From the IMG/VR virus record IMGVR_UViG_3300037963_001436, positions 1 through 28,908 of that record: DNA of 28,908 bases; one strand, written 5' to 3'. Positions within the stretch are counted from its first letter, which is position 1. Every line of letters starts with the position of its first letter. The position numbers and the translations under genes were made by a program. The notes under the pieces are model-generated. The model was not told where the DNA came from. It saw nothing but the letters and a program-made list of their open reading frames with translations, and searched no databases. The stretch is from a virus. Shown in pieces: positions 2 through 28,773 of the stretch.

Positions 2-3000
2 AATAATTGGCCAATGATAGATTTCAGGGTTGATAACACTTCTGGAAATCCTGAAGCAAGAATTTATTATAAGCAAGATATTACTTCTTTAGTTTTAGCT
101 ACAGCAAATACAAATGCTGTTTATATAGACTCAAGTCAAAATGTTGGTATTGGTTCTGCTCCAGATTCTAATACTCCTTTGCATATTAAAGATGCAACCT
201 ATGGAAGAGTAAGAATTGAATCTACTGGTTCTAATTCTTTTGCTATTCTTTATTTAAAAAATGATGCAATAGAATATGCCGTAAGAACAAATGGAAGCGA
301 TGTATTTGAAGTTCGTGACGATACTGCTGGTGCAGTTCGTTTAGCTCTTGATTCTAACTCCAGAATTTCACTAAGTAATAATGATGGTGGTACATCCAAT
401 ACAGTCTTTGGATACGAAGCAGGTAACCTTATTGGAGCTGGAGATAACTACAATGTTTTTATAGGCCATCAAGTTGCAGATGCAGATATGACGGATGCAA
501 TTCAAAATGTAGGAATAGGATACCAAGCTCTTACATCATTAACGACAGGAGTTTCAAATACAGGAGTTGGTTCTGGTTCTCTATATAATATAAATACAGG
601 AAATTATAATGTTGCTATGGGGCATCTTTCAGCAGATGCTTTAACTTCATCACAATATAATGTTGCAATAGGTTATGGGTCTTTAAGTGCAGAAGTAACA
701 TCTGGAACTGCTGTAGCGATTGGTTTTGAGGCTTTAGGATTGCAAAATAAAGGAGATACTGACAATAGTGAAAATGTAGGAGTTGGATTTCAAGCTGGAT
801 TAAGAAATGTAACAGGAACTGGCAACACATCAGTTGGATTTGAGGCTATGAAAGGAGCTTCTGGGCAAAGCAATTCCTTTAATACTGCCATTGGTAAACA
901 GGCTTTACTTAATGTTACTACAGGAAGCTATAACGTTGCAATCGGAAACATAGCTATGGATAGTGTTACTACAGGAGGAACAAATGTTGCTATAGGTTCA
1001 AGGGCATTGGCTACTTCTCAAGCACCTTTATATAATGTTGCAATTGGTGGTGATGCTTTATTTGGAGTTCCTTCTGGACAAGCTATAACAGGCGCAGTTG
1101 CTATTGGTACAGAAGCATTTAAAGGTGGATCAAGCACAGAAGCAGGATCGGATAAAACAGACTATACAATTGCGATTGGTCAAGAAGCTCTTAAATATTT
1201 GGAAACTGGACATGGTTGTGTAGCAATAGGTTATGGAGCAAGTGAAAATGTTACAACAGGAAGTTGGAATACTGTTATAGGATATGAAGCGTTTAATACA
1301 GGCACAGGAGCAAATAATACTACTGCTTTTGGGTATCGAGCTGGGAAGTTTCTTGGAGATGATGGACAGACTAACCATTCATCCTTTAATACCATCATTG
1401 GAAGGTCTGCAATGGCTGGAGGAGATACTTCAACTCCAGCTAATAACACAGCAAATTTAAATATCGCCATAGGTCATGTTGCTTTAGGTGGAAATACAAG
1501 TTCAGCTTTAACTGCGACACATAATACAGTCATAGGTTATGCTAGTATGAATTTAGCAACAAGCGCCACAAACAATGTAACTATGGGTTATGGTGCGATG
1601 CAAAATGCTACTACACCATCTTCAAACGTAGCAATAGGTATGCAAGTAATGGGTTCAGGTGTAACAACAGGTTCAGAAAACGTTGCTATCGGTAAAGATT
1701 CTATGTATGATGCTACTAGTTCAACTGGAGTTGTAGCAATAGGAACTGAAAGTGCAAATAATATTACTTCTGGAAGTGAAAGTGTAGCAGTTGGAAAACA
1801 AGCTTTATACACAGCTACCACAGTAGGTGCAAATACAGCAGTTGGATACCAAGCATTAAAATTAAATGCAGTTGCTGGCAATACAGCAATTGGACATAGT
1901 GCTGGATTAAATACAACGGGAACTGCTAATGTTTATGTTGGTGCATCTGCTGGAACGGGTGCCTCTGGAGCAGAAACTTATAATACAGGAATAGGTTATC
2001 AAGCTTTATATGATATAACATCTGGTTCAAGCAACGTAGTTGTAGGTGCTTTAGCAGGAGAAAATATTACAACAGGAGCAGAAAATACAATAGTAGGAAC
2101 AGGAGCATTTAGACAAGCTGCAACTGGTTATGATAATGTTGTAATAGGGCGTGAAGCTATGGGTCTAGGATATGTAGAAGGTCACGATAATGTTGTGGTA
2201 GGAAAAGGAGCTGGTTACGATGTTACTACAGGAAATGACAATACTCTTGTAGGAAGAGCTTCAGGGGGAAATATTACTACAGGAGAAGGAAACACTCTTA
2301 TAGGGTATCAATCTGGAAATACTGGAACAGTTGATATAGTTGGTGGAACTTATAATACATTTATTGGTTATCAAGCACGAGGCAGTAGTGCAACTTCAAT
2401 AAATCAAATAGTAATAGGAAAAACAGCGCAAGGTCAAGGAAACAATTCAGTAACACTTGGTAATGCAGATGTAACTAATGTTTATATGGCACAAGATAAA
2501 GGTGCTACAGTTCATGCTAATTATGTATTATCTCAAGGAAATCAGAATCATGTATGTAACACGATGTCTTCTCCATATTATAGATTTGATGGTACGGATG
2601 ATTCTATTAGTTGCACAGCGATAAGTGGAATGAATAACTTTTCTCTTGCTGCTTGGGCAAAAGCACCAGATTGGGATGACAATAACCATCACAATATAAT
2701 ATGTGCTTATAGTAGTGGAGGTAATAATGATTGGTATAGAATATCTATTCTTAATGATGGAACTATTACTTTTTCAGTTGATAGTGGAGATGATCATAGT
2801 GGTTTAGTTCAAGCAAAATATACTCATAGTTTAGTTGATGATACATGGCATCATATTGTAGGTGTATGTGATCAAAGAAATAACTTATTGTATCTTTATG
2901 TTGATGGAGTAAATGTTGTTAATGCCACTTATAGTGATGACACACCTATTAATGTATCAAATTTAAGAATTGGTTCAAGAGGAGATAGTAACTCTTCCGA

Positions 3001-4069
3001 AAATTGGATAGGTGAAATAAGTCAGGCTCAAGTTTGGAATGTAGCTTTAACAGGAGAAGAAGTAAAAGAATTATATAGTGGTTCAAGTGTACCTTATAAA
3101 TATAGTAGTGCAAGTCAAACTGATATGGTTACAAATGGTGGATTTGCAGATGGCTCTAATTGGACTATATCTGGTGGATGGGATATAAATACTACAACTG
3201 CTGGAAAAGCAAGATTTTTAAAAGATGGTAGTGGTATTGATTATATAGAGCAAGATGTAGGATTAATAAAAGGTAAAATGTACAGAGTAACATTTACCAT
3301 TTCAAATGCTACCAACGCTCAACTTGCAATTTATAATAAAGATACATCTAATTATGCAAGTATTCAAAACTCTTCTCCAAGTTTTTCTAATTTTACTAAC
3401 ACAGCAGATGGAACGTATGTTGTAGATTTTTTAGCAACTGCAAGTGGTAAATTAGTAATAGCTGGACATCAAAATTCTGGAAGTGCTTGGGATTTAGATG
3501 ATGTTTCATTAATACCAATCGGTGCAGTAGCTCAATACGATGGTAGTGGAATAGCATCTGATAAATGGTTTGATAAATCTGGTAATGACAATCATGGGGC
3601 AATTGTTGCTGGCGCAACTGCTCCAAGTGTAGAAAATGCTCCTTCTAGTGATGATGGTTTGGTTTATGAAGATGGCACTTGGGATCCGACCCCAGCAGAT
3701 GCCGCAAATGGTGGAAATACAGCCGCCGCTGGAACTGCAACAGGTTACTATACAAGAATTGGTAGAATGGTTCATTGTGAATTTACTTTAGTGAACATTA
3801 ACACAACTGGTATGACAGGCGGAAACGATTTTTTTGTACAGGGATTACCTTACACTGTTGCAAATCATGCTGGTCATGCTCATGGTTCTGTTGCATTAGA
3901 GAATGTGAATTTTACAGGTGAATATGTTACGATTTCTCCTTCTGGAGGAACAACTGCAATTAGATTTGCTGAAGTTCCAGACAATAGCAATATTGATATA
4001 GTTGTGGTGAGTGAAATCAATGACGATTCTGCTGATATATATGGACATTTTTCATACATGGCTACCTAA
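2..4069 (+). CDS. Large tail fibre / receptor-binding protein, 5' end cut by window edge
   Basis: Probable adhesive tail fibre. An ATG lies at position 14, but the frame stays open to the window edge (N-N-W-P precede the Met), and the first residues read like the middle of a fibre (S-S-Q-N-V-G-I-G), so the true start is probably upstream. Counting from that Met, residues about 130-825 hold some 38 degenerate repeats of the type N-V-A-I-G-Y-x-A-L, as in YadA-like trimeric adhesin heads. Residues about 850-1030 resemble a LamG/concanavalin-like lectin (D-D-T-W-H-H-I-V-G-V, then L-Y-V-D-G). Residues about 1036-1170 resemble a CBM_4_9 jelly roll starting N-G-G-F and ending D-D-V-S-L-I-P-I. The C-terminus from about 1218 (Y-E-D-G-T-W-D-P, then Y-T-R-I-G-R) is a domain seen at the ends of many phage fibres. 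No S74 chaperone is visible. Sugar or outer-membrane binding is inferred. Confidence 0.9.
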   Translation, partial: NNWPMIDFRVDNTSGNPEARIYYKQDITSLVLATANTNAVYIDSSQNVGIGSAPDSNTPLHIKDATYGRVRIESTGSNSFAILYLKNDAIEYAVRTNGSDVFEVRDDTAGAVRLALDSNSRISLSNNDGGTSNTVFGYEAGNLIGAGDNYNVFIGHQVADADMTDAIQNVGIGYQALTSLTTGVSNTGVGSGSLYNINTGNYNVAMGHLSADALTSSQYNVAIGYGSLSAEVTSGTAVAIGFEALGLQNKGDTDNSENVGVGFQAGLRNVTGTGNTSVGFEAMKGASGQSNSFNTAIGKQALLNVTTGSYNVAIGNIAMDSVTTGGTNVAIGSRALATSQAPLYNVAIGGDALFGVPSGQAITGAVAIGTEAFKGGSSTEAGSDKTDYTIAIGQEALKYLETGHGCVAIGYGASENVTTGSWNTVIGYEAFNTGTGANNTTAFGYRAGKFLGDDGQTNHSSFNTIIGRSAMAGGDTSTPANNTANLNIAIGHVALGGNTSSALTATHNTVIGYASMNLATSATNNVTMGYGAMQNATTPSSNVAIGMQVMGSGVTTGSENVAIGKDSMYDATSSTGVVAIGTESANNITSGSESVAVGKQALYTATTVGANTAVGYQALKLNAVAGNTAIGHSAGLNTTGTANVYVGASAGTGASGAETYNTGIGYQALYDITSGSSNVVVGALAGENITTGAENTIVGTGAFRQAATGYDNVVIGREAMGLGYVEGHDNVVVGKGAGYDVTTGNDNTLVGRASGGNITTGEGNTLIGYQSGNTGTVDIVGGTYNTFIGYQARGSSATSINQIVIGKTAQGQGNNSVTLGNADVTNVYMAQDKGATVHANYVLSQGNQNHVCNTMSSPYYRFDGTDDSISCTAISGMNNFSLAAWAKAPDWDDNNHHNIICAYSSGGNNDWYRISILNDGTITFSVDSGDDHSGLVQAKYTHSLVDDTWHHIVGVCDQRNNLLYLYVDGVNVVNATYSDDTPINVSNLRIGSRGDSNSSENWIGEISQAQVWNVALTGEEVKELYSGSSVPYKYSSASQTDMVTNGGFADGSNWTISGGWDINTTTAGKARFLKDGSGIDYIEQDVGLIKGKMYRVTFTISNATNAQLAIYNKDTSNYASIQNSSPSFSNFTNTADGTYVVDFLATASGKLVIAGHQNSGSAWDLDDVSLIPIGAVAQYDGSGIASDKWFDKSGNDNHGAIVAGATAPSVENAPSSDDGLVYEDGTWDPTPADAANGGNTAAAGTATGYYTRIGRMVHCEFTLVNINTTGMTGGNDFFVQGLPYTVANHAGHAHGSVALENVNFTGEYVTISPSGGTTAIRFAEVPDNSNIDIVVVSEINDDSADIYGHFSYMAT
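400..2490 (+). repeat. YadA-like head repeats encoded within the tail fibre
   Basis: About 38 units of the pattern [YSE]-N-[VT]-[AVG]-[IV]-G-x-x-[AS]-[LMG] were counted by eye, spaced roughly 15-25 residues apart. They are conserved in protein but divergent in DNA, so this is an old protein repeat, not a tandem DNA satellite. In YadA-type adhesins such repeats stack into a left-handed beta-roll trimer, and the same fold is inferred here. Confidence 0.8.
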
Positions 4070-14094: not shown

Positions 14095-14898
14095 ATGTCT
14101 ACAGCCTCAAAAATTAAATCAGCAATTCGATCTGGAGGAAAGTCTCGAAGAAAAGCTATATCAGCTTTATCGGATGTAAGTAGCAAATTATCTGAAGCTG
14201 ATTATAGTTCAAAATTATTTGAAATTAAATCTAAACAATCTGAAGATTTTTTTAATACTGTTTATTCTGGTATTGATACATTAGCTACACTTGCTGGTGG
14301 ATTAGAGCAAAAAGCTGAATTAGAATCAAATATAAAATTTTTAGAAGGAGAGTTAGGCGAAGGTCAGCAATTTGAAATAAAACAAAAACCTAAATTAATA
14401 GATGTTTTTAAAGACGATGTTACTTTGTCAGATTATTTAACAGGTGAAGATCAATATTTCTTAGGAGAAAAAAGTTTTGGTAGTAAATATGATGTAGCAG
14501 CTTTAGGTTCTAAGATTAAATCAGAAAGAGATGCAGCTGCTTTATTATCTAAAAGCATAGAAACAAATAAAATTTCAAAAGTTGCTCAATCAACTTTAGA
14601 AGAACCTAAAATGCCTTCTATAACTGGAGGCCCTAGTCCTATACCAGAAGTTTATTCATCTATTGAAAGAGAAGGCGGTGGAGGTTTAGAAACTCCAAAA
14701 ACTCCTAAGATGCCTAAAGTAATGACTGAAATTGAAAAAGGTATTCTTAGTAATGTAGATGATAGTATGGATCTTAGAGGTCAAGAAGATCTTTTCGGTT
14801 TTGGTGAAAATCCAGAAGAACTTAATATTCTTAATATGTATGATCAAGCTTTAGTTGATGATTTTGAAACATTTGCAGATGCTGGATTTATAAGATAA
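14095..14898 (+). CDS. Putative internal virion protein, hypothetical (267 aa)
   Basis: Function unknown. The ATG at 14095 follows a 58-nt AT-rich gap, the largest between plus-strand genes, and has no clear ribosome site. The first 25 residues are basic (K-S-A-I-R-S-G-G-K-S-R-R-K-A), then a helical region to about residue 90, a polar middle, a proline-rich linker (T-P-K-T-P-K-M-P-K) and an acidic C-terminus. This is the first of five genes that read as an ejection-protein block. Scaffold or assembly roles are alternatives. Confidence 0.82.
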   Translation: MSTASKIKSAIRSGGKSRRKAISALSDVSSKLSEADYSSKLFEIKSKQSEDFFNTVYSGIDTLATLAGGLEQKAELESNIKFLEGELGEGQQFEIKQKPKLIDVFKDDVTLSDYLTGEDQYFLGEKSFGSKYDVAALGSKIKSERDAAALLSKSIETNKISKVAQSTLEEPKMPSITGGPSPIPEVYSSIEREGGGGLETPKTPKMPKVMTEIEKGILSNVDDSMDLRGQEDLFGFGENPEELNILNMYDQALVDDFETFADAGFIR

Positions 14899-15608
14899 TG
14901 ATGTATAAAAAATTAGCTAAAAAAGGTAGATTCGGAGACAATAGAATAGCAAAAACTTCTAATGGTAGTTTGTGGCATGTTAATAAACAAGAAAAAAAAT
15001 TAATAGATGACTATGGAGTAGTAGGAGAAAGGATTGTTGATATGATTGGATCTGGAAGTACAAATCCAGAAACAGGTTTAAAGGAACAATTTTTACCAAT
15101 GATAACAGCCGGATTAGCAATAGGATCTGCGGTAATGGGAGCTGTGCAATCTTATGGTCAAACAAAAAGAGAAAGAGAACAAGGCGAAATGCAAGTAGGT
15201 TTTGCAAAAGAAGCTTTGGATTCTTTATCAGAAGCTGAATCTTCTTTAAAAGATTCTTTAGGATCTAGCTTAGCTTTACCTACATTAGAAGCGCAAAGAC
15301 AAGTTGAAGACATATCTAAAAAATCTCAAATTGGAATAGAAAATCTTAAAAAAAGACAAGACATTATGGTTGGCAAAACTGGTTTTGCTAGTACAGGCAT
15401 AGATAATACAGAAGTTATTACTCAAGCTAGAGATGAATATAGAACTCAACTAGAAGATGTTGATATAGGTTTAAATAAAAACCTATCAGAAGTTTTATCT
15501 AATTTTGAACAATCTCAATCTGAATTAACATTGCAAAGGCAACAGTTAAATCAACAAAAAAAATTAGCACAACAACAAGCAAACACTAAATACTTTGGAA
15601 TATTTTAA
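14898..15608 (+). CDS. Internal virion protein, T7 gp14-like in layout (236 aa)
   Basis: The ATG overlaps the preceding TAA (TAATGATG). The N-terminal 60 residues hold G-R-F-G-D-N-R-I-A and S-L-W-H-V-N-K-Q-E-K-K-L-I-D-D-Y-G. One hydrophobic segment lies at about 66-86 (L-P-M-I-T-A-G-L-A-I-G-S-A-V-M-G-A-V), followed by a long helical, Gln-rich coiled coil to the C-terminus. A small protein with one glycine-rich membrane segment and a helical tail, placed just before larger internal proteins, matches the role and order of T7 gp14, which forms a pore in the outer membrane. Homology to gp14 is not demonstrated; the similarity is in architecture. Confidence 0.88.
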   Translation: MMYKKLAKKGRFGDNRIAKTSNGSLWHVNKQEKKLIDDYGVVGERIVDMIGSGSTNPETGLKEQFLPMITAGLAIGSAVMGAVQSYGQTKREREQGEMQVGFAKEALDSLSEAESSLKDSLGSSLALPTLEAQRQVEDISKKSQIGIENLKKRQDIMVGKTGFASTGIDNTEVITQARDEYRTQLEDVDIGLNKNLSEVLSNFEQSQSELTLQRQQLNQQKKLAQQQANTKYFGIF

Positions 15609-15610
15609 TA

Positions 15611-16522
15611 ATGTCTAGGGCTTTAGATTCACTTAATAGTATTTTAAAATACAGACAAGCTAGAGAGCAACAAAAAATAGATAGATCTTTAGCATTGTTA
15701 GATTTAGGAACTAGATTAAAACAACAACAATACGATAGAGAAGAGCAATTGCAAAGAATGGAAATTGCTAGGGAAAGAGAAAGAGACAATGATGAAATAA
15801 GAGAATTTCAAAAAAAATCTTTAGATCCAGAATTATCAAAAATGAAAAAAGAAAAAGCTGCTATTGATTTAAAAATACAAAAAGTAGCTTTAGACAATGC
15901 TATTAGTAATAGAACAGAATCTAATGTTACTAAGTTTTTTACAGGAATAAGTAATCAGCATGCAATGACAGACTTAGCTAATGTAGCTAGAATAAAATCA
16001 CAATCAATAATTCCTTCACAAGTTTTTGATTATATAGAAAATAATTACACTGGAAAAGAAGATTTAGATGAATTAAAAACTAATATAAAAAATTTAGGTA
16101 CAAAAAAAGATAAAAAATTAATTAACGAATTTTATAAAAAACCTCAAAGTCAAGCAATTGTTAATTCAATAATAAAAGCTGAGGTAGCTAAAAGTTCAAC
16201 AGGCAATCCAGACTACAATAGTTTTTTAAGATTATTTGAAAATTTAGATAAAAGTTATTTTGCAAATCAAATTCCTTATATGAATAATTTAAAAGATCCA
16301 GTTATAAAACATAATGATAATAAAGATTTTTATTCTAATCAACAAAATAGAATAAGAATAGCTAATTCTATAGAGCAATTAAGTAAAAATCAAATAACAG
16401 AAGAATTAGAAGGTACATTAGAAGATGTTGTAATAGATCAACAAATAGAAGGTTATGTTCCTTTTGATATAAAACAACAATTATTGGAAGAAGGTTTTTC
16501 TAAAGAAGACGTAGGACTATAA
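15611..16522 (+). CDS. Helical internal virion protein candidate (303 aa)
   Basis: Not recognised. The ATG lies 2 nt after the preceding stop. Residues about 10-95 form a highly charged coiled coil (R-Q-A-R-E-Q-Q-K-I-D-R, M-E-I-A-R-E-R-E-R-D-N-D-E-I-R-E-F), with the remainder predicted helical and rich in Lys, Asn and Ile. There is no membrane segment. It sits between the gp14-like gene and the giant protein, the position occupied by gp15-type proteins in T7-like ejection blocks; that comparison rests on gene order alone. The next ATG follows after one base. Confidence 0.85.
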   Translation: MSRALDSLNSILKYRQAREQQKIDRSLALLDLGTRLKQQQYDREEQLQRMEIARERERDNDEIREFQKKSLDPELSKMKKEKAAIDLKIQKVALDNAISNRTESNVTKFFTGISNQHAMTDLANVARIKSQSIIPSQVFDYIENNYTGKEDLDELKTNIKNLGTKKDKKLINEFYKKPQSQAIVNSIIKAEVAKSSTGNPDYNSFLRLFENLDKSYFANQIPYMNNLKDPVIKHNDNKDFYSNQQNRIRIANSIEQLSKNQITEELEGTLEDVVIDQQIEGYVPFDIKQQLLEEGFSKEDVGL

Positions 16523-16523
16523 T

Positions 16524-19500
16524 ATGCCAATGTCAAATGCAGCTCTAGAAAGAGCTAAACAATTATTAAGACAACAAAATTCAAATCAATTAAATCCAAA
16601 TGCATCTCTTAACGTTTATGGAATATCTCAAACAAAACAAGATCAACAAAAAGAATTAACTCAAAGAGAATTATTTCAGCAAAGAAGAGAACAAGAAAAA
16701 CAATCTCTTTTACAATTAGAACAAAGTCTTAATCAACCACGAGAAATACCAACTGAACAAAACTTAGGAATACTAAGAAATGTAGGTGAATCTTTATATA
16801 AAGGTGTAGCTGCTGGTGGGTACGAACTTATCGAATCTGGGGGTTTCGGAGCACCCGGTTTAGCAGAAGCAGGTTTAGAAAGACTCACTGGTATTGATTT
16901 AGGTGTTCAAGAAACTGCTAGAAAATTTCAAGAAGAAGATAGATTTGCTAAGGTAATGGGAGGAGTAGGAACTGGTGCTGGTTATTTAATTGGAGCTCCA
17001 GTTAAAATAACTTCTGCTCTTTTAGGAAAAGGATCAGCTGCAATAGCATCTAAATTGTTTGGTATGCAAACTACATCAGCAGCTGTAAAGAATGTAACAA
17101 AAGCAGCTAACAAAGCATCTAAACTTTCTAAAAGCATGAAAAAACAACTTTCGGATGAAGTGTCTGATGTTGTTCAAAAAACTGCTTCATCTGTGGGTAT
17201 AAAAACATCTACAGCTAGTAATACATTTGCTGATTCATTTGCTAGAAATATTAATTCTAGAATAAGATTATTGCGATCATCTGGTCAAATTAATTCAGCT
17301 CAAGCAAAAGCTATGAGAGATATGGCTAATGTAGTTGGATTAAAAGGTGTACCAGTTAATACATTGCAAACTTTAGCTAAAAGAAGATTTGGAGAAGGTT
17401 ACGCTGGTAGGTTTATGGGAGAGTTTCTTGAAGATGCTTTTGTATTTTCTTTTGCAGATGGTTTAATGAGTGTTAGTAGGCAATCGCAAGAAATACTAAG
17501 AGGTGAATCTGATTCTTTAAAAGGTGGATTTAATATTTTTGATGAAAGTTTTTTAGAAGCAGGTAGCGTTGCTAGAGAGATGTTGTTTGGTTTTGCCGCT
17601 GGTACAGCAGTTAATGCTACAGCTGCTGCTTTTAAACCATTAAACAAAATGATGAAATCAAGAGTAGATTTTATTCAAGGAGTTAGAGGTTTATTAAATA
17701 AAAATGCTTACAAAGGAAAAGACTTAACATATCTTACTAGACAATTACTTCATTATGGTGAACAAAATAGATATAATAACTTTTCTACAAAAATGAATTT
17801 TACAAAAGATGGAGTAAAAGATTATATTGATTTGCATAAGTTTAAATTAGCTAATGGAAAATTATCTGAATCTAGATTAGAAAAACAATTAAGAGATGAA
17901 CTTGGTGATGACGCTGAAAAAGAAGCAGTAAAATGGTTGATGTCTAATAAAAAAACATATTCTAAAGAAATAATAAAAGAAGCAATAAGAGAAGGTGGTA
18001 AAAATTATAGAGTTTTATTTAGTAGAATGATGGCGACTGGATTTGCTATGTCTGGTACTCAAGGTTTACAAATGTATATAGACTCTGAAGGTGAATATGA
18101 GTTTAATGATCCTACTGATTTTATATCAAGTTTTATTATTGGTGGATTTACAATGAGGAGAGGTAATTTTGGTAGAATAGATATTGATACTAAAATCAAT
18201 AAATTAAGAGAAGGTTTAAGTCAATTAGGTATTAATTCTTCAAATACATTTTATTCCTCTACTTTATCTAAAGGCAATGAAAGATTTGGTGTTGGTTTAT
18301 TAAGAGATAACCCAGAACTAACAGATTATTTAAAAGAACAAGGTATTGTAAGTGACGATGATGAAACAATAACTAATTACGAATTTAAAGAAGGAGAGAA
18401 ATCTTTTTATAATTTTGATAAAGCAGTTCCTACAGATCCATATGGACAAAGGATGAATGTTTTAGCAGGGTTAATGAATACTGATTTTAATTATCATAGA
18501 ACATTAGATCAAATTACAGATAAACAAGCTTCTGAAATTATAAAATTACTAGAAGCTCAAGGTCTTAAAACTGTTGAAGATTTTGATAAAGCAATACAAG
18601 ATAGAGTTGATGAATCTACTCAGAGTATGGAAGAGTCTTTAGTTAATGTTTTAAAAAATATAACTAGATCAAACCATGAAGATCTTTCTTCTAGGGAAAA
18701 TAAAAATGGAATTACTATACCAGCAAATATAAAGATAAGTAATGAATTGCTTAAGAAAGCATCTAATGGAGAGTTTAAAGAATGGTTATCTGGTAAAGAA
18801 GGAAACGAAGCAGAAGAAGAATTATTAGATTCTATGAGAAGTTTAGAAACTGTTATAGCTGTTAGCGAAGGATTAGGTAAAGCTTCTTTTGATACATCTT
18901 TAAGTGTAAACAAAATTGAAAATGCAGAAACATTAAAATCTGTATATGACGTTATAAGAAAAGCAGAATCTATTATTGATGATAGTGTAGCAAATAAAGA
19001 TGGAAGAGTAGAATTTAAATTTACAGAATTAGAATCTTATATTGTTCCTATGATGAGAAATATAGGAAACAACAATACTAAAAAAATTATGAATGTATTG
19101 TCTGAAAAAAATATGGATTCAAAATTAACATCTTTATTTCTTGATGCTGGTATTTTAGTAAAAGAAGATGAAAAGATTAAACTTATAAATGATTATAAAG
19201 ATATTAACACATCTGAAGACGCTGGTAAAATTGATCTTGGTAAAATACATGGCATATTAAAAGCATTAGGCGAGTTTGAAATAACTCAAAATGCAAATCC
19301 AAACGTTGTAGAAAAAACACCTATTTCTAGTTTAAAAAATCAATTAGATACTTTAGGAGTTAAAGTTGATTTATTAAATAAAAAGAATATGGAATATATG
19401 TATCAATTAGTTTTAAATGATATAAACAAACTTAGATTAAAAAATTCTGTAGTAGATCCAGCGGATATAGATTTTATTATACAACAATCTGGCAATCCAA

Positions 19501-22500
19501 ATTTTAGTGTACCCGGTGTATTAGATGATAAAGGTATAAGAAATTTTGTTTTAAGAACTGTTGAAATACCAAGTGATTTAGATTTACAAAATAGATACAA
19601 TAATAAAATATTAAAAAGATTAGAAAAAGATTCTAAAGTTGTTAGTATTCTTAGTAATCCTATTCAATTAGATAAAGAGGATGCATTTTTATTAAGAAGA
19701 AAATTAAATATAATCTATACAAAAGATAGAACCAATGATAATAGAAAAATAGAAAGTCTATTTGAAATGATGACTAATACAAATTTAAATAGTGTTAAAA
19801 ATCAAATGCAAGAACACATATTAACTTTTGGAGATGAAGCAAGAATAGATGTTTTAAATATGTTAAATCAACAAAATATTATTAAGAGAAATGTTAATGG
19901 TGATTTAGAAATTGTAGAAAAAAATCTTACTATAGAAAAATTTGAATTAATAAGTAATAACATAGATAGAGCAGGTTTACCATCTGATGTAGTACAAGCA
20001 AAAATTGATGAAAGAAAAGAAATAAGAAGAAAATATATTAAAGATTCAAGTGATGTTATAGATGAGAAGAATGCTTCATTAAAATTAGATGATTTCTTTT
20101 TAAGATATAAATTTAAAAATACATTAGACGATGGAACAATTGATTACGCTGATTATTCTAATCAAGACAACATTGCTAAAAGAGATTTTTTTAATGAATT
20201 AATATTTGAAGATAATCCAAAAGCAATAGAAGGTCAAGAAGTAGAAGAGTTAAAAGTTATTAATAAAGATTCTATAAAAAGAATAACAGATAAAATAGTT
20301 TTTAAAAACATAGAGTATTCTAAACTTAATCAAGACCAAAAAGAAAAAGTACTACAAGACATACAACAGATAGCATTTGGAACTAAAGATAGGGTAGCGG
20401 TTAGAAAAATAAGTATTAGAAACAATGAACTATCTATTGATGATAACAAAGAACTTATGCAAAACAATCCTGTTCATAAGTATTTTAAATCGTTAGGGTT
20501 AGATTATGGTATATTTGACAATAGTGTTGTTTATACAGAATTTAATAGAAGTGGTAATTTAGTAGAAAAAACATACAATATTCTTCAAACAGAAAACGTA
20601 CCTAAACAATTAAGATCTAGGATAAAAGAAACTAGAGATAGGGTATTGAGAACTTTAGCAAAGAAAAATTTAAACAATAGCGATGTTGCATCTATGGAAC
20701 CTAATGATATAGGTGTAAAGAAATTAGATGTTTATGATGGCATGGATAGTATTTTAATAAATACAATTGACCAACAAAAAATAGTAGATGACTTTGATAG
20801 ATTTCATAAAGAACATATAGATAAAGTAGATAGCAGAACAAAAAAAATATTAAACAATATTAAAAAATCATTTGACGAAACAGACAGTATTTATAAATAC
20901 GATGATGAAAAAATAGAACACGCTACTAGGTTTTTAATATTTGAAGTAGGATTTAAAAGTAAAGAAAACGAATTATTTTATAGTATACTAGACGAAACTA
21001 GCCCAAGTAGAGTAGATAAATACATTAAAAGATTAAAGTTAATTACTACAAAAAACTTTGTTAGACCCACAGGTGAATATTTAGAATCTTTAAAAGAAGT
21101 TAGAAGAGCATTGTATGATAATCCAGATAAAGCAAAAGAAGATAGGATTATAAAATTAATTGATTCTAGAATTAAGAAAAAAGGACACAATGTTTTAATA
21201 TGGGATGATGAGGGTACGGAAACCATGTCTCAGATTATAAAAGATTTGAAAGAAGAATACCCTGAATATGAAGGAATTGATTTAGAAAATACTATAGGAA
21301 CCGCTCATGGGAAAGTTTCTGGTTTTGATAGTATTAGTTTTATTTCTAAAGATGCAATGTCTGAATATCATACATATATGGGTCACGATCCATCTTCTAG
21401 AAACCCGATTAAACCAGTTATATCCTCTCAAGGCAAAGAAAAAACATTATTGTATGGTAAGACATTGTTTGTTTACTCTCCCGCTCTAGATGGTTTCTTT
21501 GAAAACAATCCAACAGTAGATATATTATTAACTAAGTCAGGTGCAAAAGCATATGATGGTATAGACGATCCAACAAAAGATGATTCAAATGTTATTAAAA
21601 ATAAAAGGTGGTTTGAATTAAACGAAGGTTCGTATTCTAACTTAATTAAAACTATTGATATTGATGCTTTGGGTTTAAGACCACAAAAAGATGCAAACTT
21701 ATTATCTGGTAGTGTGTCTGATGCTGATTTTAATTACATGAATAACCTAGAACATGAAGCTGCCTTTTTAGAAATAGCAGATGAATTAGATTTAAATTTA
21801 GATTACATGAAACAAATTATGTATGATCCTTATAAATTAAATGCTTTTATGAGAACTAAAATGTCTGAGGGTAAGATACCAGAAGATTCTAGGGAAGGTG
21901 CTTTAAACAATTTAAGTAGTTTAATGTACTATTTAAAAATAAGTGAATCAGCAGATCCTAGAGATTATAGTACAAACCAAGTTCAAAAGTACCTAGCGCA
22001 AGAATATATAGATACTATTTTTTCAGACAGAAGAGCAATTGTAAATAGAATATATAAAGATGTAGAACCAGATTCTTATAGATACGGAGGTCAAGCTGAG
22101 TTAGTTGTATCTGGTAAAAGTCATTTAGGTGAAAATAAAAAAACAAGATTGTTACCAACTCTATTTAATAATTTAAATAAAATGGTAGTTAGAGGTCAGA
22201 TGATGCTACCTTTTAAAGAAAGAGATTCTAGGTTATCTGAGTTAGGAACTAAAAAAATAAGAATTGTTCAAAATGATAGAATATTAAAAGTAAACGAATT
22301 TGTAGAAGAGGTAAGTGACTTAATAGGTCTAGATAAACAATCTAAAGATATTCTTGACAGACTAGAAGAAGAGATAGAAACAGATGCTACGTTAGGAATC
22401 TTGCATGATAGAATAGAATCTATAGCAAAAGAAACAAATACAAGATATGAAATAGGAATTATATCTAGAAGAAATCCAAGAACAAGACCTAACGATATAA

Positions 22501-25244
22501 CGTTGTTGGGATTAAAAGGATTTTTAGACGAAGGACAGGGATTAGGTGTAGAAATAAATAGTTTTGATGTTGCTAATGTATATGAAGGTGATTACGATGC
22601 TGATAAGGTAGATTACTTTTTTGCTCACGATGATTATATGTTTGATTATATTAAAAGAAACCAAGCGTATTTTGTTCAAGGTATTGATCCTTCAGATTTA
22701 CAAGGAGATCCAACATTTACCTTTCAAATGGAATCTAGTGCCTCTAGAGATGCAGTATTATCTAAAATAGGTAGTTCTATATCTTACAAACAAGGTATAG
22801 GAATAGTTCAAAAAACTCCTAGAAAAATAAATTATTTACAAAACTTAGGTAATAATGAATATTTATTTGAACCTGACCAAAGAGAATTGTGGGATAATGA
22901 AGTAAGAAATAATCCAGTTACCGATGAACTTATTGGCCCTTCTATTTTATATAAAAGTGGTAAAAATGAATTTGTAACTATTGATACTGAAACTTTAGCT
23001 TATTTTCAAAGAGCAGCTTTAGAAGTTCAATACATTGTAGATGGATCTAATCAATTAAATCCAAACATTGCAGGGGATATATATGATTGGACAGATAACT
23101 TTTTGTTTCCTTCAAATTCAACATCAATATCTCCTAAACAAGCAAATGCTAAAGATCTAAAAGAGATAATAGAAAATGGTCAAACTGCTAATGGTAGTAG
23201 GGTAAGAATATTTCAAAAGTTTAAACTAGATAAAAACTCTAATAAATATAAAGTTACAGAAGATTTAAATGATGCTGATAAATTAATTATAAAAGAATTT
23301 TTAAATCAACAAAATAAATTATTAAATGCATTTGGCGATAAAACATATACTGAAGGGTCTCCAAGAAAATCTACTTTTTATGATTTATATAATGGAAGTA
23401 GAATATTTAGAGACTTTCATAAAAATATATATAGTGGATTAGACAAAGCATTAATATATAAAAGAAAATTTTTATCTAGTGGTGATAAAAAATATTTACA
23501 AAATTTATTAAAACCTGACAATAAAGCATTTGAGCGTATAGAATCAAACGTTCAAAATATATACGATGGTCAAGGTGGTGGTTATTTAGATAGAATGGCT
23601 GTTGCTATTGCTAAAAGTGAATTAATGGAAGATAAAAAGCAATACAATTTAGATATAGAAATATATACAGAAGTTGATAATTGGTTTAATTCATTATTAG
23701 GAGATGCTTCTGATGAAAATGGCGACTACAGAAGTGTTTCAAAGAAAAAAATATTAGAACCTTTTTTATCTAAAATAGATAATCAAATTAAATCTAAAGC
23801 TGATACTAGAGCAAAAAAAATAATTAAAGATACTCAACAATTTAATTCTTATATATCTACAATTAAAAGATTATCAAAGAAAAAACAATTTATTGAAAAA
23901 AGTTCTTATCATTGGAAATGGAAAAAACATAAAATGGATGCATTAGATTATGTTATAAATAAAATGCAAAATAATGTACAAGAAAAATATGGTAAGAATA
24001 TTAAAAAAATTAATCCACAAAATTTAAATTATAAAAAATATGTTTCTGTAGAAGATAGTGGTATAATAAAGTCTATTATTCACAAACATTCTTTAAATGC
24101 TTTTTTAAAAAAATATGGATCTGAATATGATAGTTGGACTGAAACATTAGGAGGTAAAGACAGTCAAGCAAGAATAGATTTGCAGGCTGTAAAAGATTTT
24201 AATGCTAAGATTATTGGTGGTAATACACTATTAGATGAATTAATTCCAAATAATAAAAATACAATTTTAGACAATGATATAATGTTTAAATTTATACAAC
24301 AACATGATACTGGAATTAGTAATGCGTGGGAATTAAGAGAAAAGTATTTACTTAATAAAGTAAGAGAACATGGAATTAATTTTTTATATGCATACATGGA
24401 ACCTATTAGAGACAATGAATCTATAGGTGTATTTAATAATAGGCCTGTTGCTATTCCTTATAAAGAATCAAAAAGATATTCTCATGGTATACAATTACTA
24501 ACAAAAATGGCTCAAGGAAATACAAAATTATTTAAAGATTTAAAAGAATTAAATGAACTCCCAGGCGTAGATTCTTCTGCTATGTTGCAAAATACAGCAT
24601 TTACAAATTTATTAGAAATATCACAAGCTAATGAACATTATAGAAGGTTTTTTGAAAAAGATACTGAATTAAGAGATTTAGCTAATCCTTTATTAGATAG
24701 GTATCCATTAATGGATTTTGGTAGACCAATGGAAAAAAGATTAAATACTAATAATGATTTTAAATGGTCTGCTCAAATGTTAGCATCTGATCCATTATCA
24801 ACTTTAAATAAATCTACTATAGAAGTTTATAGAAATTTTGCTGAAACATATACAGATAGAACAAATGAAGATTTTATAAAGTTTATTAACGATTTAAATG
24901 ATTTAGATGAATTTTCTGCAAGGCATGATTATGTTAATCCATCTAGATATATGCAAAAAAGATTATCTTTAGATGAGGGTTTTAGAAAATTAAGTAAAAA
25001 AAGTTTAGATGTAGTAGGAGCTGATGGTAAACCTACTAATATGCTAGATACAGAAAATTATTTAGGTAATAAGTTTTTTAAATTTAAACCTAAACTTGTA
25101 AAATCAGATCAAAAATTAATATCTATGTTAAAAAATATGAGAGAAATGAAGAACGAATTAAATAGAAGTGTAAGAGATAATCCTGTAAGAGATACAGGAT
25201 ATGAAACTTTTAGATTGTTAAAGGAGCAAAAAGATTGCCTATAA
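16524..25244 (+). CDS. Giant virion protein with candidate double-psi-barrel RNA polymerase core (2906 aa)
   Basis: Likely a packaged single-chain DNA-dependent RNA polymerase. Residues 1-75 are Gln-rich and helical. Residues about 80-180, 352-371 and 503-547 are glycine/alanine-rich and hydrophobic, as in ejected proteins. The key region is I-S-R-R-N-P-R-T-R-P at 1980-1989 and Y-E-G-D-Y-D-A-D-K-V-D at 2020-2030, with D2023, D2025 and D2027 placed like the metal-binding aspartates of beta-prime NADFDGD. DxDxD is also the form in crAss-like phage phi14:2 gp66 (DFDID, from memory). Residues 1595-1679 (H-G-K-V-S-G-F-D-S-I-S-F-I-S, later L-T-K-S-G-A-K) may be the lysine-bearing second barrel. About 880 residues follow the motif. 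It is longer than gp66 (about 2180 aa). CDS certain; polymerase activity inferred. Confidence 0.9.
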   Translation: MPMSNAALERAKQLLRQQNSNQLNPNASLNVYGISQTKQDQQKELTQRELFQQRREQEKQSLLQLEQSLNQPREIPTEQNLGILRNVGESLYKGVAAGGYELIESGGFGAPGLAEAGLERLTGIDLGVQETARKFQEEDRFAKVMGGVGTGAGYLIGAPVKITSALLGKGSAAIASKLFGMQTTSAAVKNVTKAANKASKLSKSMKKQLSDEVSDVVQKTASSVGIKTSTASNTFADSFARNINSRIRLLRSSGQINSAQAKAMRDMANVVGLKGVPVNTLQTLAKRRFGEGYAGRFMGEFLEDAFVFSFADGLMSVSRQSQEILRGESDSLKGGFNIFDESFLEAGSVAREMLFGFAAGTAVNATAAAFKPLNKMMKSRVDFIQGVRGLLNKNAYKGKDLTYLTRQLLHYGEQNRYNNFSTKMNFTKDGVKDYIDLHKFKLANGKLSESRLEKQLRDELGDDAEKEAVKWLMSNKKTYSKEIIKEAIREGGKNYRVLFSRMMATGFAMSGTQGLQMYIDSEGEYEFNDPTDFISSFIIGGFTMRRGNFGRIDIDTKINKLREGLSQLGINSSNTFYSSTLSKGNERFGVGLLRDNPELTDYLKEQGIVSDDDETITNYEFKEGEKSFYNFDKAVPTDPYGQRMNVLAGLMNTDFNYHRTLDQITDKQASEIIKLLEAQGLKTVEDFDKAIQDRVDESTQSMEESLVNVLKNITRSNHEDLSSRENKNGITIPANIKISNELLKKASNGEFKEWLSGKEGNEAEEELLDSMRSLETVIAVSEGLGKASFDTSLSVNKIENAETLKSVYDVIRKAESIIDDSVANKDGRVEFKFTELESYIVPMMRNIGNNNTKKIMNVLSEKNMDSKLTSLFLDAGILVKEDEKIKLINDYKDINTSEDAGKIDLGKIHGILKALGEFEITQNANPNVVEKTPISSLKNQLDTLGVKVDLLNKKNMEYMYQLVLNDINKLRLKNSVVDPADIDFIIQQSGNPNFSVPGVLDDKGIRNFVLRTVEIPSDLDLQNRYNNKILKRLEKDSKVVSILSNPIQLDKEDAFLLRRKLNIIYTKDRTNDNRKIESLFEMMTNTNLNSVKNQMQEHILTFGDEARIDVLNMLNQQNIIKRNVNGDLEIVEKNLTIEKFELISNNIDRAGLPSDVVQAKIDERKEIRRKYIKDSSDVIDEKNASLKLDDFFLRYKFKNTLDDGTIDYADYSNQDNIAKRDFFNELIFEDNPKAIEGQEVEELKVINKDSIKRITDKIVFKNIEYSKLNQDQKEKVLQDIQQIAFGTKDRVAVRKISIRNNELSIDDNKELMQNNPVHKYFKSLGLDYGIFDNSVVYTEFNRSGNLVEKTYNILQTENVPKQLRSRIKETRDRVLRTLAKKNLNNSDVASMEPNDIGVKKLDVYDGMDSILINTIDQQKIVDDFDRFHKEHIDKVDSRTKKILNNIKKSFDETDSIYKYDDEKIEHATRFLIFEVGFKSKENELFYSILDETSPSRVDKYIKRLKLITTKNFVRPTGEYLESLKEVRRALYDNPDKAKEDRIIKLIDSRIKKKGHNVLIWDDEGTETMSQIIKDLKEEYPEYEGIDLENTIGTAHGKVSGFDSISFISKDAMSEYHTYMGHDPSSRNPIKPVISSQGKEKTLLYGKTLFVYSPALDGFFENNPTVDILLTKSGAKAYDGIDDPTKDDSNVIKNKRWFELNEGSYSNLIKTIDIDALGLRPQKDANLLSGSVSDADFNYMNNLEHEAAFLEIADELDLNLDYMKQIMYDPYKLNAFMRTKMSEGKIPEDSREGALNNLSSLMYYLKISESADPRDYSTNQVQKYLAQEYIDTIFSDRRAIVNRIYKDVEPDSYRYGGQAELVVSGKSHLGENKKTRLLPTLFNNLNKMVVRGQMMLPFKERDSRLSELGTKKIRIVQNDRILKVNEFVEEVSDLIGLDKQSKDILDRLEEEIETDATLGILHDRIESIAKETNTRYEIGIISRRNPRTRPNDITLLGLKGFLDEGQGLGVEINSFDVANVYEGDYDADKVDYFFAHDDYMFDYIKRNQAYFVQGIDPSDLQGDPTFTFQMESSASRDAVLSKIGSSISYKQGIGIVQKTPRKINYLQNLGNNEYLFEPDQRELWDNEVRNNPVTDELIGPSILYKSGKNEFVTIDTETLAYFQRAALEVQYIVDGSNQLNPNIAGDIYDWTDNFLFPSNSTSISPKQANAKDLKEIIENGQTANGSRVRIFQKFKLDKNSNKYKVTEDLNDADKLIIKEFLNQQNKLLNAFGDKTYTEGSPRKSTFYDLYNGSRIFRDFHKNIYSGLDKALIYKRKFLSSGDKKYLQNLLKPDNKAFERIESNVQNIYDGQGGGYLDRMAVAIAKSELMEDKKQYNLDIEIYTEVDNWFNSLLGDASDENGDYRSVSKKKILEPFLSKIDNQIKSKADTRAKKIIKDTQQFNSYISTIKRLSKKKQFIEKSSYHWKWKKHKMDALDYVINKMQNNVQEKYGKNIKKINPQNLNYKKYVSVEDSGIIKSIIHKHSLNAFLKKYGSEYDSWTETLGGKDSQARIDLQAVKDFNAKIIGGNTLLDELIPNNKNTILDNDIMFKFIQQHDTGISNAWELREKYLLNKVREHGINFLYAYMEPIRDNESIGVFNNRPVAIPYKESKRYSHGIQLLTKMAQGNTKLFKDLKELNELPGVDSSAMLQNTAFTNLLEISQANEHYRRFFEKDTELRDLANPLLDRYPLMDFGRPMEKRLNTNNDFKWSAQMLASDPLSTLNKSTIEVYRNFAETYTDRTNEDFIKFINDLNDLDEFSARHDYVNPSRYMQKRLSLDEGFRKLSKKSLDVVGADGKPTNMLDTENYLGNKFFKFKPKLVKSDQKLISMLKNMREMKNELNRSVRDNPVRDTGYETFRLLKEQKDCL
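22461..22613 (+). other. Candidate RNA polymerase catalytic barrel, DYDAD motif
   Basis: Codons for residues 1980-2030 of the giant protein. An R-R-N-P element (1982-1985) is followed by a glycine/hydrophobic stretch (L-L-G-L-K-G-F, G-L-G-V-E-I-N) and then Y-E-G-D-Y-D-A-D at 22581-22604. The order and spacing parallel bacterial beta-prime, where N-R-x-P-x-L-H precedes N-A-D-F-D-G-D by about 35-40 residues. Confidence 0.62.
25221..25226 (+). promoter_or_regulatory. Shine-Dalgarno AAGGAG deciding a TTG start at 25235
   Basis: AAGGAG inside the last codons of the giant gene is 8 nt before TTG 25235. No ATG or GTG stands at this spacing, so the site supports a true TTG start. Confidence 0.65.
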
Positions 25245-28069
25245 ATTGTAATGATGTAAAGAATCCATTAACAGAAAGATTGTTAGATGGTATTGATAAA
25301 TGGGCTAGCAATCAAGAAACTGTAGATAATATAGGTATGCCATATCAAGCTGCTATATCTATGTTTGAAGCTAGGTTTAATATTCCTATAGAAGCAGCTG
25401 CTTTACTAGGTGCAAAACAAACTAGAAACTTTTTAGGATTAGGTGCTATAGAAGCATTTAAGTCTGATTTAAATAAATATACACAAAGAGTAAAAGACGG
25501 CAAATTAACAAGTTTTGAATCATTAGAAGGATTTATGACTGGAACTGTGTTGGGTAAGAAAGATCCAGTTTTGCAAAAAACATTGAAAGGAATTAGGGAT
25601 ATTGTAAATAGCGATTCTCTTAGGGAAAGTAAATTAAATAAAAGTTTTCTTAGTGTCATAGATAAAATAAAAGCATCTGGTGGTTTAAGTTCTAGAAATT
25701 TAAACAAAGGACTGAAAGAACATAGAAGATTGCAATTAGAATACATTAAAGCATTAGATTCTAAAGATGGTGATCTTATAGAAAAAACAAATAATGAATT
25801 ACAAGAATTTGAAAAAGGTGGAGTTGTTAGTTCTTTTGTTGATTTTATAAAAATAATAGAAGATAGAGTACCTGAAGCAATTAAATTAAAATATGAAAGT
25901 GAAAAAGCATTAGCTGATTCTGGTGATAAAAAAGCTAAAAAAAGAATTAAAGATTATGATTCTGGTAAAAATTTAGTAAAGTTTGAAAACGAACAAGAAG
26001 CTAAAGATTTATTAACTAGAGTTGGCATAGATGATTCTTTATTGCCAGCAGTTGTAGAATATAATAATTTAATGGATGAATCTTATAAAACATTAAGACT
26101 TGGTATAGATAAAAAAATAGATACAATTATTTCTAAAATAGAAAATAAAAGAGGATCTCAATTCACTATTGATAGATTAGAAGAAACAAAACAAAATTTA
26201 AAATCTAAATTAATGCCTAAGTATATTGAGGGATACTTTCCTCATTATACTAATGAATTAAATATAAAATTTATGGATAACTTAATGCCATATTTTGATA
26301 AAATGGAGACATCTCAAATTGATGGTAAACATGATTCTTTAGACATTGATGATATTATAAAAAATTTAAATGATGCTATTCCTTCTTTTGGAAAATCTAG
26401 AACACAAGGAACTAATTATGAATACAATAAAAATTTTATAGATGTTGTTAGTTCTTACATTAATCAAATAAATAAATTTAATACAAATGCTTTTTTAACT
26501 AATTCACATTTTGAATCATTAGACTTAGCTAGAAAAATGTATGGTGAAACACAATACTCTGATTACTCTGCTAAAGTGGTAAGCACAATAGAAAGTTTAT
26601 ATGGTTCTATGAATGGAAATAGTAGAGTAGATGGATCAATGAATGAAATAAAAAAAGCATTATTATCGTATCAGTTTTTTAATAAACTAGGTTTTAGTTT
26701 CAGATCTGCTTTAAAAAATTATACACAGATATTAATGAACCTTCCTACGTTTGGAGTATCTGGTATGTATCAATCTCTTAAATATATAAAAGATAATCCA
26801 TTAAAGTTTAATATAGACAAATTTTTAAAAGAATCTAACTTATACATGGATACCTCTGAAGCAGCTATTGAATCTGGTATTAAAGGTTTAGATAAAGATC
26901 AGATTAGAATTAGAAGAATGAATGACAAAGGAAAAATAGTTTATTCAACAGAAGGTAATTTTGTATATAAAGGTTTAAAAGTTTTTTCAAGTGGAATGAG
27001 TTCACTTGCACAAATAAGTTCTGTATTTCATAGGAAAGCTGAAAATGCAAATAGAAAACTCACTGCTAAAATAGCATACGGTCAGATACAAAAGATAATG
27101 GATGAAAGTCCAAGATTTGAAAGATATATACAATCACAAATAGATAGTGGTCAACTAAAAGGATCTATAAACGATATTAAAAGAAGATATGCTAGAAACT
27201 ATGCTAAAAGTATGGTCATACTAAATCATTTTGATTATGAATCATATGCTAAAGCAAAAAATATGAAAGAAGGCATAGGTCAATTTTTATTTCAATTCCA
27301 ACATTATGGTATGGAATTTTTAGAAAGAAATTATTCTGTAGTTAAAGAAGCATATTACGATCAACAGGTTTTAAGAAAAGAAAAAACAAAATTTTCAGAG
27401 TGGTTAAAAGATGCTAAAGGTGTTCATAAAACAATGAACATGACTATGGCTTATTTTATAGCACCTGCTTTAATTAGTTATATATCTGGATATAATCAAA
27501 CTTTAGTAGAACACACTGGTGAAGAAATACTAAAAGATTTATGGATGTTATTTTCATCTGATCTTGATGATGAAGAAGACAGAGAAAGATTAAATAGGCA
27601 ATTTTTTGGTAAAGGTGTAGTTACTTCAAAGTTAGGCCCGACTGTTGGAACTATACTTGATGTAGGTGTAATGACAGAATTAATAAATGCTGATAGTGAA
27701 TATCTTGACAATATTGCTTTTTCAGTAGGCGAATATTCACATGATGATAATATGGATATTGCAATGCAACAAATAAAATTGTTTAATCAATTTCTTGGTA
27801 GGTCTGCTGATAGATATATTCCAATGAGTGTAAAAACTCCTTATGGTGTATTTTCTGCATTTCTTGGTCAGGAATCAACATTCTATCCTAAAAAGAAAGA
27901 TGAAAAAACTTTATTTAGAGATATTGAACCTGTGTTAAAACAAGTTGCTCCGTCATATTATTTTGAAAAGTTAAAAAAAGAATCTAGATCAAAAAGAAAA
28001 TATGGCAATCTACCTTTAGGTTTAAAGAACTCATTAAAATATATAGAAAAAGAGGGTAAGCGTAAATAA
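25235..28069 (+). CDS. Large internal virion / ejection-like protein (944 aa), TTG start
   Basis: Function unknown. It overlaps the giant gene by 10 nt and starts at TTG with a strong ribosome site. The protein is mostly helical. Residues about 486-507 (G-F-S-F-R-S-A-L-K-N-Y-T-Q-I-L-M-N-L-P) resemble an S-A-x-x-N-x-T-Q patch I recall from very large phage virion proteins. Residues about 735-752 (M-A-Y-F-I-A-P-A-L-I-S-Y-I-S-G-Y) are hydrophobic and could insert in a membrane, and an acidic patch S-D-L-D-D-E-E-D-R-E follows. The end is very basic. Position at the end of the internal-protein block and size suggest a T7 gp16-like role in DNA delivery. No lytic transglycosylase motif was seen. Confidence 0.9.
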   Translation: MPINCNDVKNPLTERLLDGIDKWASNQETVDNIGMPYQAAISMFEARFNIPIEAAALLGAKQTRNFLGLGAIEAFKSDLNKYTQRVKDGKLTSFESLEGFMTGTVLGKKDPVLQKTLKGIRDIVNSDSLRESKLNKSFLSVIDKIKASGGLSSRNLNKGLKEHRRLQLEYIKALDSKDGDLIEKTNNELQEFEKGGVVSSFVDFIKIIEDRVPEAIKLKYESEKALADSGDKKAKKRIKDYDSGKNLVKFENEQEAKDLLTRVGIDDSLLPAVVEYNNLMDESYKTLRLGIDKKIDTIISKIENKRGSQFTIDRLEETKQNLKSKLMPKYIEGYFPHYTNELNIKFMDNLMPYFDKMETSQIDGKHDSLDIDDIIKNLNDAIPSFGKSRTQGTNYEYNKNFIDVVSSYINQINKFNTNAFLTNSHFESLDLARKMYGETQYSDYSAKVVSTIESLYGSMNGNSRVDGSMNEIKKALLSYQFFNKLGFSFRSALKNYTQILMNLPTFGVSGMYQSLKYIKDNPLKFNIDKFLKESNLYMDTSEAAIESGIKGLDKDQIRIRRMNDKGKIVYSTEGNFVYKGLKVFSSGMSSLAQISSVFHRKAENANRKLTAKIAYGQIQKIMDESPRFERYIQSQIDSGQLKGSINDIKRRYARNYAKSMVILNHFDYESYAKAKNMKEGIGQFLFQFQHYGMEFLERNYSVVKEAYYDQQVLRKEKTKFSEWLKDAKGVHKTMNMTMAYFIAPALISYISGYNQTLVEHTGEEILKDLWMLFSSDLDDEEDRERLNRQFFGKGVVTSKLGPTVGTILDVGVMTELINADSEYLDNIAFSVGEYSHDDNMDIAMQQIKLFNQFLGRSADRYIPMSVKTPYGVFSAFLGQESTFYPKKKDEKTLFRDIEPVLKQVAPSYYFEKLKKESRSKRKYGNLPLGLKNSLKYIEKEGKRK

Positions 28070-28103: not shown

Positions 28104-28289
28104 TTATGCTGTAAATTTAGTCTCTTCACTCATTTGAATTAACTTTTCTAATTGTTTTGTTGCGTTTCTAAATAATTCTAACATTTTTATAATAGATTTA
28201 TCATCATGTCTTTCCATTGCTAATTTAATTGATTTGCATACATTCCCAGATGTTCTTATCCATAATTCTATGCTATCTTTATTCTCCAT
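28104..28289 (-). CDS. Hypothetical small helical protein (61 aa)
   Basis: Not recognised. The start has AAGGAG 7 nt upstream on the minus strand, inside the resolvase gene, and the first codons overlap the resolvase end by 11 nt. The protein is helical and amphipathic (I-E-L-W-I-R-T-S-G-N-V, then I-I-K-M-L-E-L-F-R-N-A-T-K-Q-L-E-K-L-I), with one cysteine and no membrane segment. Last gene of the minus-strand transcript before the hairpin. Confidence 0.75.
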   Translation of the reverse strand: MENKDSIELWIRTSGNVCKSIKLAMERHDDKSIIKMLELFRNATKQLEKLIQMSEETKFTA

Positions 28290-28773
28290 TTTGTCTCTCC
28301 TTTTCTGTGTACATTCCGTACATTGTTATTAATACAGCATCAGCATTCCATAGCGTTGCTGGTTTGTCTGTGTAAACAGATGCTATTTCTTTTAGTTTAT
28401 TTTTTCTATCTTTTTTTACTTTAGGAAACTTCTCTCCTATTTTACTTTCCCAAAACTTCATCCATTTTTGTGGTGATACTTCTACTATTTGATTTATAGT
28501 ATTTAAGGAATGTAGTATACCTAACCATGCTCCATAGTTTACTCCAAACTTAAATAAAGAACTACGACCATCGTGAGGCATTGCATGAACCTTTTCTATG
28601 TATGCTATTGTTTCATATGATCTATAAGCATTAGCAGCCATAGAGGCAGTTACTCTTCTACCAGCAATTGATGGATGGCATTTATGTGTATACATATCTT
28701 TTTTTTCTGAACTAGCAAAGCATAGTGCTCCACTAGCGCCAGGATCTATTCCTATTACTGTTATAGGTCTCAT
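28279..28773 (-). CDS. RuvC-like Holliday-junction resolvase, phage type (164 aa)
   Basis: Predicted to cut branched DNA during replication, recombination or packaging. The RNase H-like fold is marked by I-G-I-D-P-G-A-S-G-A-L (D10), Y-I-E-K-V-H-A-M-P (E60), and L-W-N-A-D-A-V-L-I (D145), the acidic metal ligands in RuvC order. The segment S-S-L-F-K-F-G-V-N-Y-G-A-W-L-G-I-L and V-S-P-Q-K-W-M-K are typical of phage RuvC-like nucleases. Length fits the family. A ribosome site AAAGGA lies 6 nt before the ATG, and the start overlaps the stop of the upstream gene (ATGA). It belongs to a minus-strand arm that probably carries replication genes. Confidence 0.9.
   Translation of the reverse strand: MRPITVIGIDPGASGALCFASSEKKDMYTHKCHPSIAGRRVTASMAANAYRSYETIAYIEKVHAMPHDGRSSLFKFGVNYGAWLGILHSLNTINQIVEVSPQKWMKFWESKIGEKFPKVKKDRKNKLKEIASVYTDKPATLWNADAVLITMYGMYTEKERQNGE

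Follow-up and report, generated by a model that had tools for sequence, protein, structure and literature searches.

The stretch analysed (the window), a virus record of 28.9 kb (IMGVR_UViG_3300037963_001436, 28,908 nt), carries a giant open reading frame (ORF) whose product is predicted to contain the core of a single-chain two-barrel RNA polymerase (RNAP). The features relevant to the analysis are the following:

14095 to 16522, plus strand: three ORFs (267, 236 and 303 aa) immediately ahead of the polymerase gene, where ejected internal virion proteins would be expected, a putative function taken from their position.
16524 to 25244, plus strand: giant protein of 2906 aa with a predicted single-chain two-barrel RNA polymerase core; ORF with homologues of ~2830 to 3000 aa in many IMG/VR contigs.
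20376 to 23888, plus strand: residues 1285 to 2455, the modelled region, with a fold match to phi14:2 gp66, QDE-1 and RDR2 (AlphaFold2 model, structure search).
21318 to 21563, plus strand: residues 1599 to 1680, proposed first (beta-like, lysine) barrel, DPBB-B, with FDSI..NPIKPV..GKTLF..VDILLTKSGAKAYDG (conservation, profile alignment).
22080 to 22112, plus strand: residues 1853 to 1863, RYGGQAELVVS, connector between the barrels, aligned with the GGSFIQLS region of gp66.
22443 to 22625, plus strand: residues 1974 to 2034, proposed second (beta-prime-like) barrel, DPBB-A, with RRNPRTRPND and YEGDYDADKVD (conservation, model, alignment).
22467 to 22478, plus strand: RRNP, residues 1982 to 1985, opening a stretch with P1985, T1987, P1989 and D1991 invariant in the family.
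22590 to 22604, plus strand: DYDAD, with the family-invariant aspartates D2023/D2025/D2027 as the proposed metal-binding triad (conservation; forced alignment with gp66).
22734 to 22847, plus strand: residues 2071 to 2108, a 38-residue helix directly after DPBB-A and a bridge-helix candidate, holding I2092, G2093 and R2100 (conservation, model).
25235 to 28069, plus strand: 944-aa ORF directly downstream of the polymerase, with no Pfam match and no known family, recurring downstream in the relatives read.

The original prediction saw an RNA polymerase signature in residues 1980 to 2030 (positions 22461 to 22613), where R-R-N-P is followed 35 residues on by Y-E-G-D-Y-D-A-D-K-V-D. Letters and coordinates are exact, with RRNP at residues 1982 to 1985 and YEGDYDADKVD at residues 2020 to 2030, and D2023/D2025/D2027 is the sole DxDxD within the protein. 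Taken alone, the bare pattern ([RK]xP, 28 to 45 residues, D[FYLI]DxD) is weak and not significant, as 18 of 300 composition shuffles (6%) of the 2906-aa protein yield it; the motif becomes significant because it is conserved across a family.

With the 2906-aa protein as the query, four close relatives were found in IMG/VR; the core alignment retrieved 13 loci and a wider alignment 46, and further ones were reached through the motif EGDYDAD, whose chance carriers, short unrelated ORFs, were told apart from the true family by profile search. After clustering at 88% identity, the set comprised 39 distinct sequences (38 relatives and the window protein; 40 rows in the conservation table, where the window's own locus, L005, was entered twice), among which identity drops to ~28 to 30%. 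In spite of this divergence, G2022, D2023, D2025 and D2027 are invariant in all 39, and the same holds for three lysines upstream of DxDxD (K1630, K1646 and K1675); the three aspartates, whose conservation in homologues had been proposed as a check, are therefore kept throughout. The invariant residues cluster between positions 1503 and 2300, namely in the first barrel region (D1602, S1603, I1604, K1630, P1631, G1645, K1646, T1647, D1666 and K1675, with D1602 and the three lysines falling in the proposed DPBB-B), in the connector (Y1854, G1856 and Q1857), and near and after DxDxD (P1985, T1987, P1989, D1991, G2022, I2092, G2093 and R2100), and residues 2001 to 2050 rank among the best-conserved stretches of the entire protein. 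In all family members R1983 lies 40 residues ahead of D2023, and in 78 of 78 crAss enzymes the distance from the arginine to DxDxD is 39. Three members (L058, L138 and L141) have insertions of ~110 residues in the connector between the barrels, ahead of the RNP motif.

The alanine replacing glycine in DYDAD had been taken as the sign of a divergent branch. This residue is alanine in all family members but two, which have valine or tyrosine, and isoleucine or valine in the crAss relatives; since the position varies in both groups, alanine is by itself no mark of divergence.

The AlphaFold2 model of residues 1285 to 2455, built with 37 aligned sequences, reached a mean pLDDT of 79 and a pTM of 0.78. 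Its top PDB match with Foldseek was 6vr4, which is gp66 of the crAss-like phage phi14:2, a virion RNA polymerase (E 4.2e-8, probability 1.00); next came three entries of QDE-1 (E 9.9e-5, 3.1e-4 and 5.6e-3), maize RDR2 (E 1.6e-3) and, weakly, the non-virion RNAPs (nvRNAPs) of AR9 and PhiKZ (three entries, E 0.6 to 1.1). All PDB matches at E<1 were two-barrel RNA polymerases, with unrelated proteins from E 2.2 on, so that structure prediction, the comparison called for by the original prediction, came out in its favour. Among the BFVD viral predictions, the matches include proteins of the crAss-like phages cr50_1, cr118_1, cr116_1, cr131_1 and cr4_1, plus A0A516 entries. The matches point to two double-psi barrels and the 38-residue helix of the model to a bridge helix, with a catalytic loop of low confidence (pLDDT < 50 at residues 2018 to 2025). 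Superposition of the whole model on gp66 was poor (TM 0.32, rmsd 20 Å), meaning that the domain arrangement, as modelled, differs or is mispredicted. Given this global TM and the low-confidence DxDxD loop, the model supports homology and is unfit for active-site geometry.

A profile comparison led in the same direction. When the family was aligned by hhalign with a profile of 78 crAss RNAPs (gp66, its GenBank crAss relatives and 72 IMG/VR sequences), the catalytic cores were significantly similar over ~395 columns (probability 93 to 94, score 74 to 76, E 2-4e-7; untrimmed, probability 93 and E 3.5e-7 across 396 columns). After trimming, the score was 75.9; reversing the profile lowered it to 18.7, and none of 40 decoys with shuffled columns or blocks exceeded 30.5. 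When only 8 crAss sequences were aligned, the match was short and insignificant, in the correct register, and it became significant with 78. In particular, hhalign pairs D1602 with gp66 D962, NPIKPV with QPLKGV (K1630 with K1012), the VDILLTKSGAKAYDG stretch with IGESIVLDGVKVG (K1675 with K1065), RYGGQ with the GGSFIQ region and RNP with RIP, while K1646 falls on the invariant gp66 K1027 only after a by-eye shift of one residue. The significant local alignment ends ~12 residues before DxDxD; with the last barrel aligned by force, D2023/2025/2027/K2028 fall on gp66 D1361/1363/1365/K1366 (DYDADK on DFDIDK). Conserved aspartates, fold match and decoy-calibrated profile homology together support the polymerase reading of the signature, as judged from sequence and model.

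The likeness to known enzymes that had been proposed held for gp66 and failed for bacterial beta-prime, the closest enzymes being gp66 and QDE-1/RDR. Like gp66, the new protein is a single giant chain in which a lysine barrel with three invariant lysines precedes the DxDxD barrel, with a GG..IQ-like connector in between and RxP 39 to 40 residues ahead of DxDxDK, and gp66 is its best fold match; different from gp66, it shares only ~13% identity with it across the aligned core and has ~1500 residues before the core instead of ~890. With bacterial beta and beta-prime, the new family shares DxDxD and the two-barrel principle, but those are two separate subunits, beta-prime with NADFDGD, without a significant match to the family, which features EGDYDAD in one chain. 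The N4 virion RNAP would be alike in its role as the giant virion polymerase of a podovirus, but it is of the T7 type and has another fold; the T7-type polymerase family PF00940 gave no match in 16 contigs, in a search run without a positive control. Gp96 of P23-45 is likewise a two-barrel virion RNAP within a giant virion protein, found through DxDxD (PMC10770324), to which the new family would correspond if packaged as we presume; however, it belongs to a phage with a long tail, in which it is joined to the tape measure, and is absent among the best 50 fold matches.

The RNA-interference polymerases QDE-1 and the plant RDRs are eukaryotic, with solved chains of ~1000 to 1200 residues and a glycine in DYDGD or DLDGD, and their match to the new family is without significance by sequence profile; nevertheless, besides the fold match (E 1e-4 to 6e-3), they share with it [RK]xP-x3-P-x-D-[IV] followed by GD[YL]DxD. 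The P-x3-P-x-D element precedes DxDxD in every family member (RNPRTRPNDITLL...EGDYDAD), in QDE-1 (RSPAHFPSDIQKV...GGDYDGD; RSPAHFPSD) and in plant RDRs (KNPCLHPGDIRVL...GGDLDGD; KNPCLHPGD), and in none of the 78 crAss enzymes. It may be an ancestral feature or the result of convergence, and carries little weight alone. Since the motif is common to both and absent from the crAss enzymes, the family could be useful for tracing the origin of the RNA-interference polymerases. That the family, keeping features of crAss gp66 and of those polymerases, stands nearer than the crAss RNAPs to the phage source of QDE-1/RDR is a proposition that we regard as rather unlikely.

The gene order was read in three longer related contigs (50 to 54 kb). 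One strand encodes the terminase (phrog_38), portal, capsid, tail proteins, small proteins, the polymerase and a protein of 900 to 950 aa; the portal is of the P22 type (PF16510; two contigs tested, with E 8e-45 and 5e-50) and the capsid of the SU10 type (PF17236). Counterparts of the 267-, 236- and 303-aa ORFs recur upstream of the polymerase in the relatives. The other strand encodes a DnaB-type helicase, a protein resembling Holliday junction resolvases and one that, judged by eye, is methylase-like. As in phi14:2, the polymerase gene closes the structural block, but the head and packaging genes of phi14:2 are of another type and its genome measures 100 kb, against the 50 to 54 kb of these possibly incomplete contigs. 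The hallmark genes of phi14:2, Crass_capsid together with phrog_6547 and phrog_6681 (crAss portal and terminase families), were not those of the relatives; because a P22-type portal, an SU10-type capsid and a phrog_38 TerL occur in their stead, hallmark genes place the phages with the new polymerase outside Crassvirales.

On the evidence of sequence and model, then, the 2906-aa protein represents a new family of single-chain two-barrel RNAPs outside Crassvirales. We consider it highly probable that a single-polypeptide RNAP of the gp66/QDE-1/RDR clade resides in the giant protein of an uncultured P22/SU10-type podovirus and is packaged, ejected and used for early transcription; this reading is built on conservation, fold similarity, profile homology and gene order, from which we infer catalysis, a DNA template, packaging, ejection and promoter use. 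The active site would be formed by two double-psi barrels in one chain (lysines at ~1600 to 1680; D2023/D2025/D2027 at ~1974 to 2034), followed by the bridge helix. In known two-barrel RNAPs, three aspartates on one barrel serve two Mg ions and basic residues come from the other (PMC7824862; PMC10770324), a mechanism that the conserved aspartates and lysines fit: the invariant triad, aligned to gp66 DFDID, would bind the two Mg ions, and the lysines, contributed by the other barrel according to the sequence alignment, would stabilise phosphate transfer. Since the gene ends the late structural module and adjoins small ORFs located where internal virion proteins would be encoded, its product most likely enters the virion and is ejected along with the DNA, after which it would transcribe the first phage genes with no wait for the host polymerase. 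Its use may be coupled to DNA entry, by analogy with the virion RNAPs of crAss-like, N4-related and P23-45 phages, which are fused to large proteins and may couple the two processes (PMC10770324).

Other explanations of the same data were weighed. The enzyme could be a non-virion two-barrel RNAP, produced while infection proceeds to serve middle or late genes, in the manner of P23-45 gp64 or the AR9 nvRNAP, and several phages do carry such nvRNAPs (PMC10770324). We find this improbable, given that the gene belongs to a late structural operon with small virion-type proteins as neighbours, as does gp66, which is annotated from mass spectrometry as a virion protein, and that the replication genes run on the opposite strand. 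Moreover, the polymerase is embedded in a chain of 2906 aa, just as the virion RNAPs of the three phage groups named above are fused to large proteins (same source).

The large remainder of the chain outside the polymerase core would suit a dead polymerase descendant retained as a DNA-translocation or structural protein, but the invariance of all predicted catalytic aspartates and lysines, maintained in 39 sequences at the low identity given above, makes this very improbable. As for DxDxD being a chance motif, another kind of metal-binding loop in an unrelated ejection protein, the frequency of the pattern among shuffles and the failure of family databases to recognise the protein speak for it, whereas the decoy-calibrated profile matches, the structure matches to two-barrel polymerases and the invariant triad and lysines reduce its probability to almost nothing.

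The packaged single-chain polymerase that we favour seems to have escaped annotation. Pfam, PHROGs and PDB sequence searches with the 2906-aa protein and 37 aligned members returned no meaningful family, tblastn of three members against 50,697 GenBank phage records gave no match, and scans of GTDB genomes for the family gave none either, hence no host or provirus. No description of the family was found in the literature searched; the supplements of PMC10770324, a survey of viral two-barrel RNAPs, lay outside the search, and an earlier mention there is possible. Podoviruses outside Crassvirales thereby gain a diverse, previously unannotated group of one-chain RNA polymerases; the gp66-type virion polymerase would thus be no crAss speciality, and proteins missed by Pfam and PHROGs receive a predicted function. 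With their smaller genome, these phages may also be suited to studies of early transcription driven from the virion.

In three related contigs, the early region was scanned for promoter motifs and yielded only the Shine-Dalgarno-like AAAGGAG, which occurs in the early regions of G003, G009 and G016 and at about half of the window's genes. Shine-Dalgarno-like sites at this frequency in the window speak against a Bacteroidetes host. At 28279 to 28773 (minus strand, opposite the structural genes), the window encodes a Holliday junction resolvase-like protein (phrog_1770, E 8e-19), whose start is near-identical in G003. The protein at 2 to 4069 (1351 aa if counted from the ATG at position 14, in a frame open at the window start) is fibre-like: NVAIGYQAL-type repeats are numerous in it and a LamG-like region can be made out by eye, so that it is probably a tail fibre.
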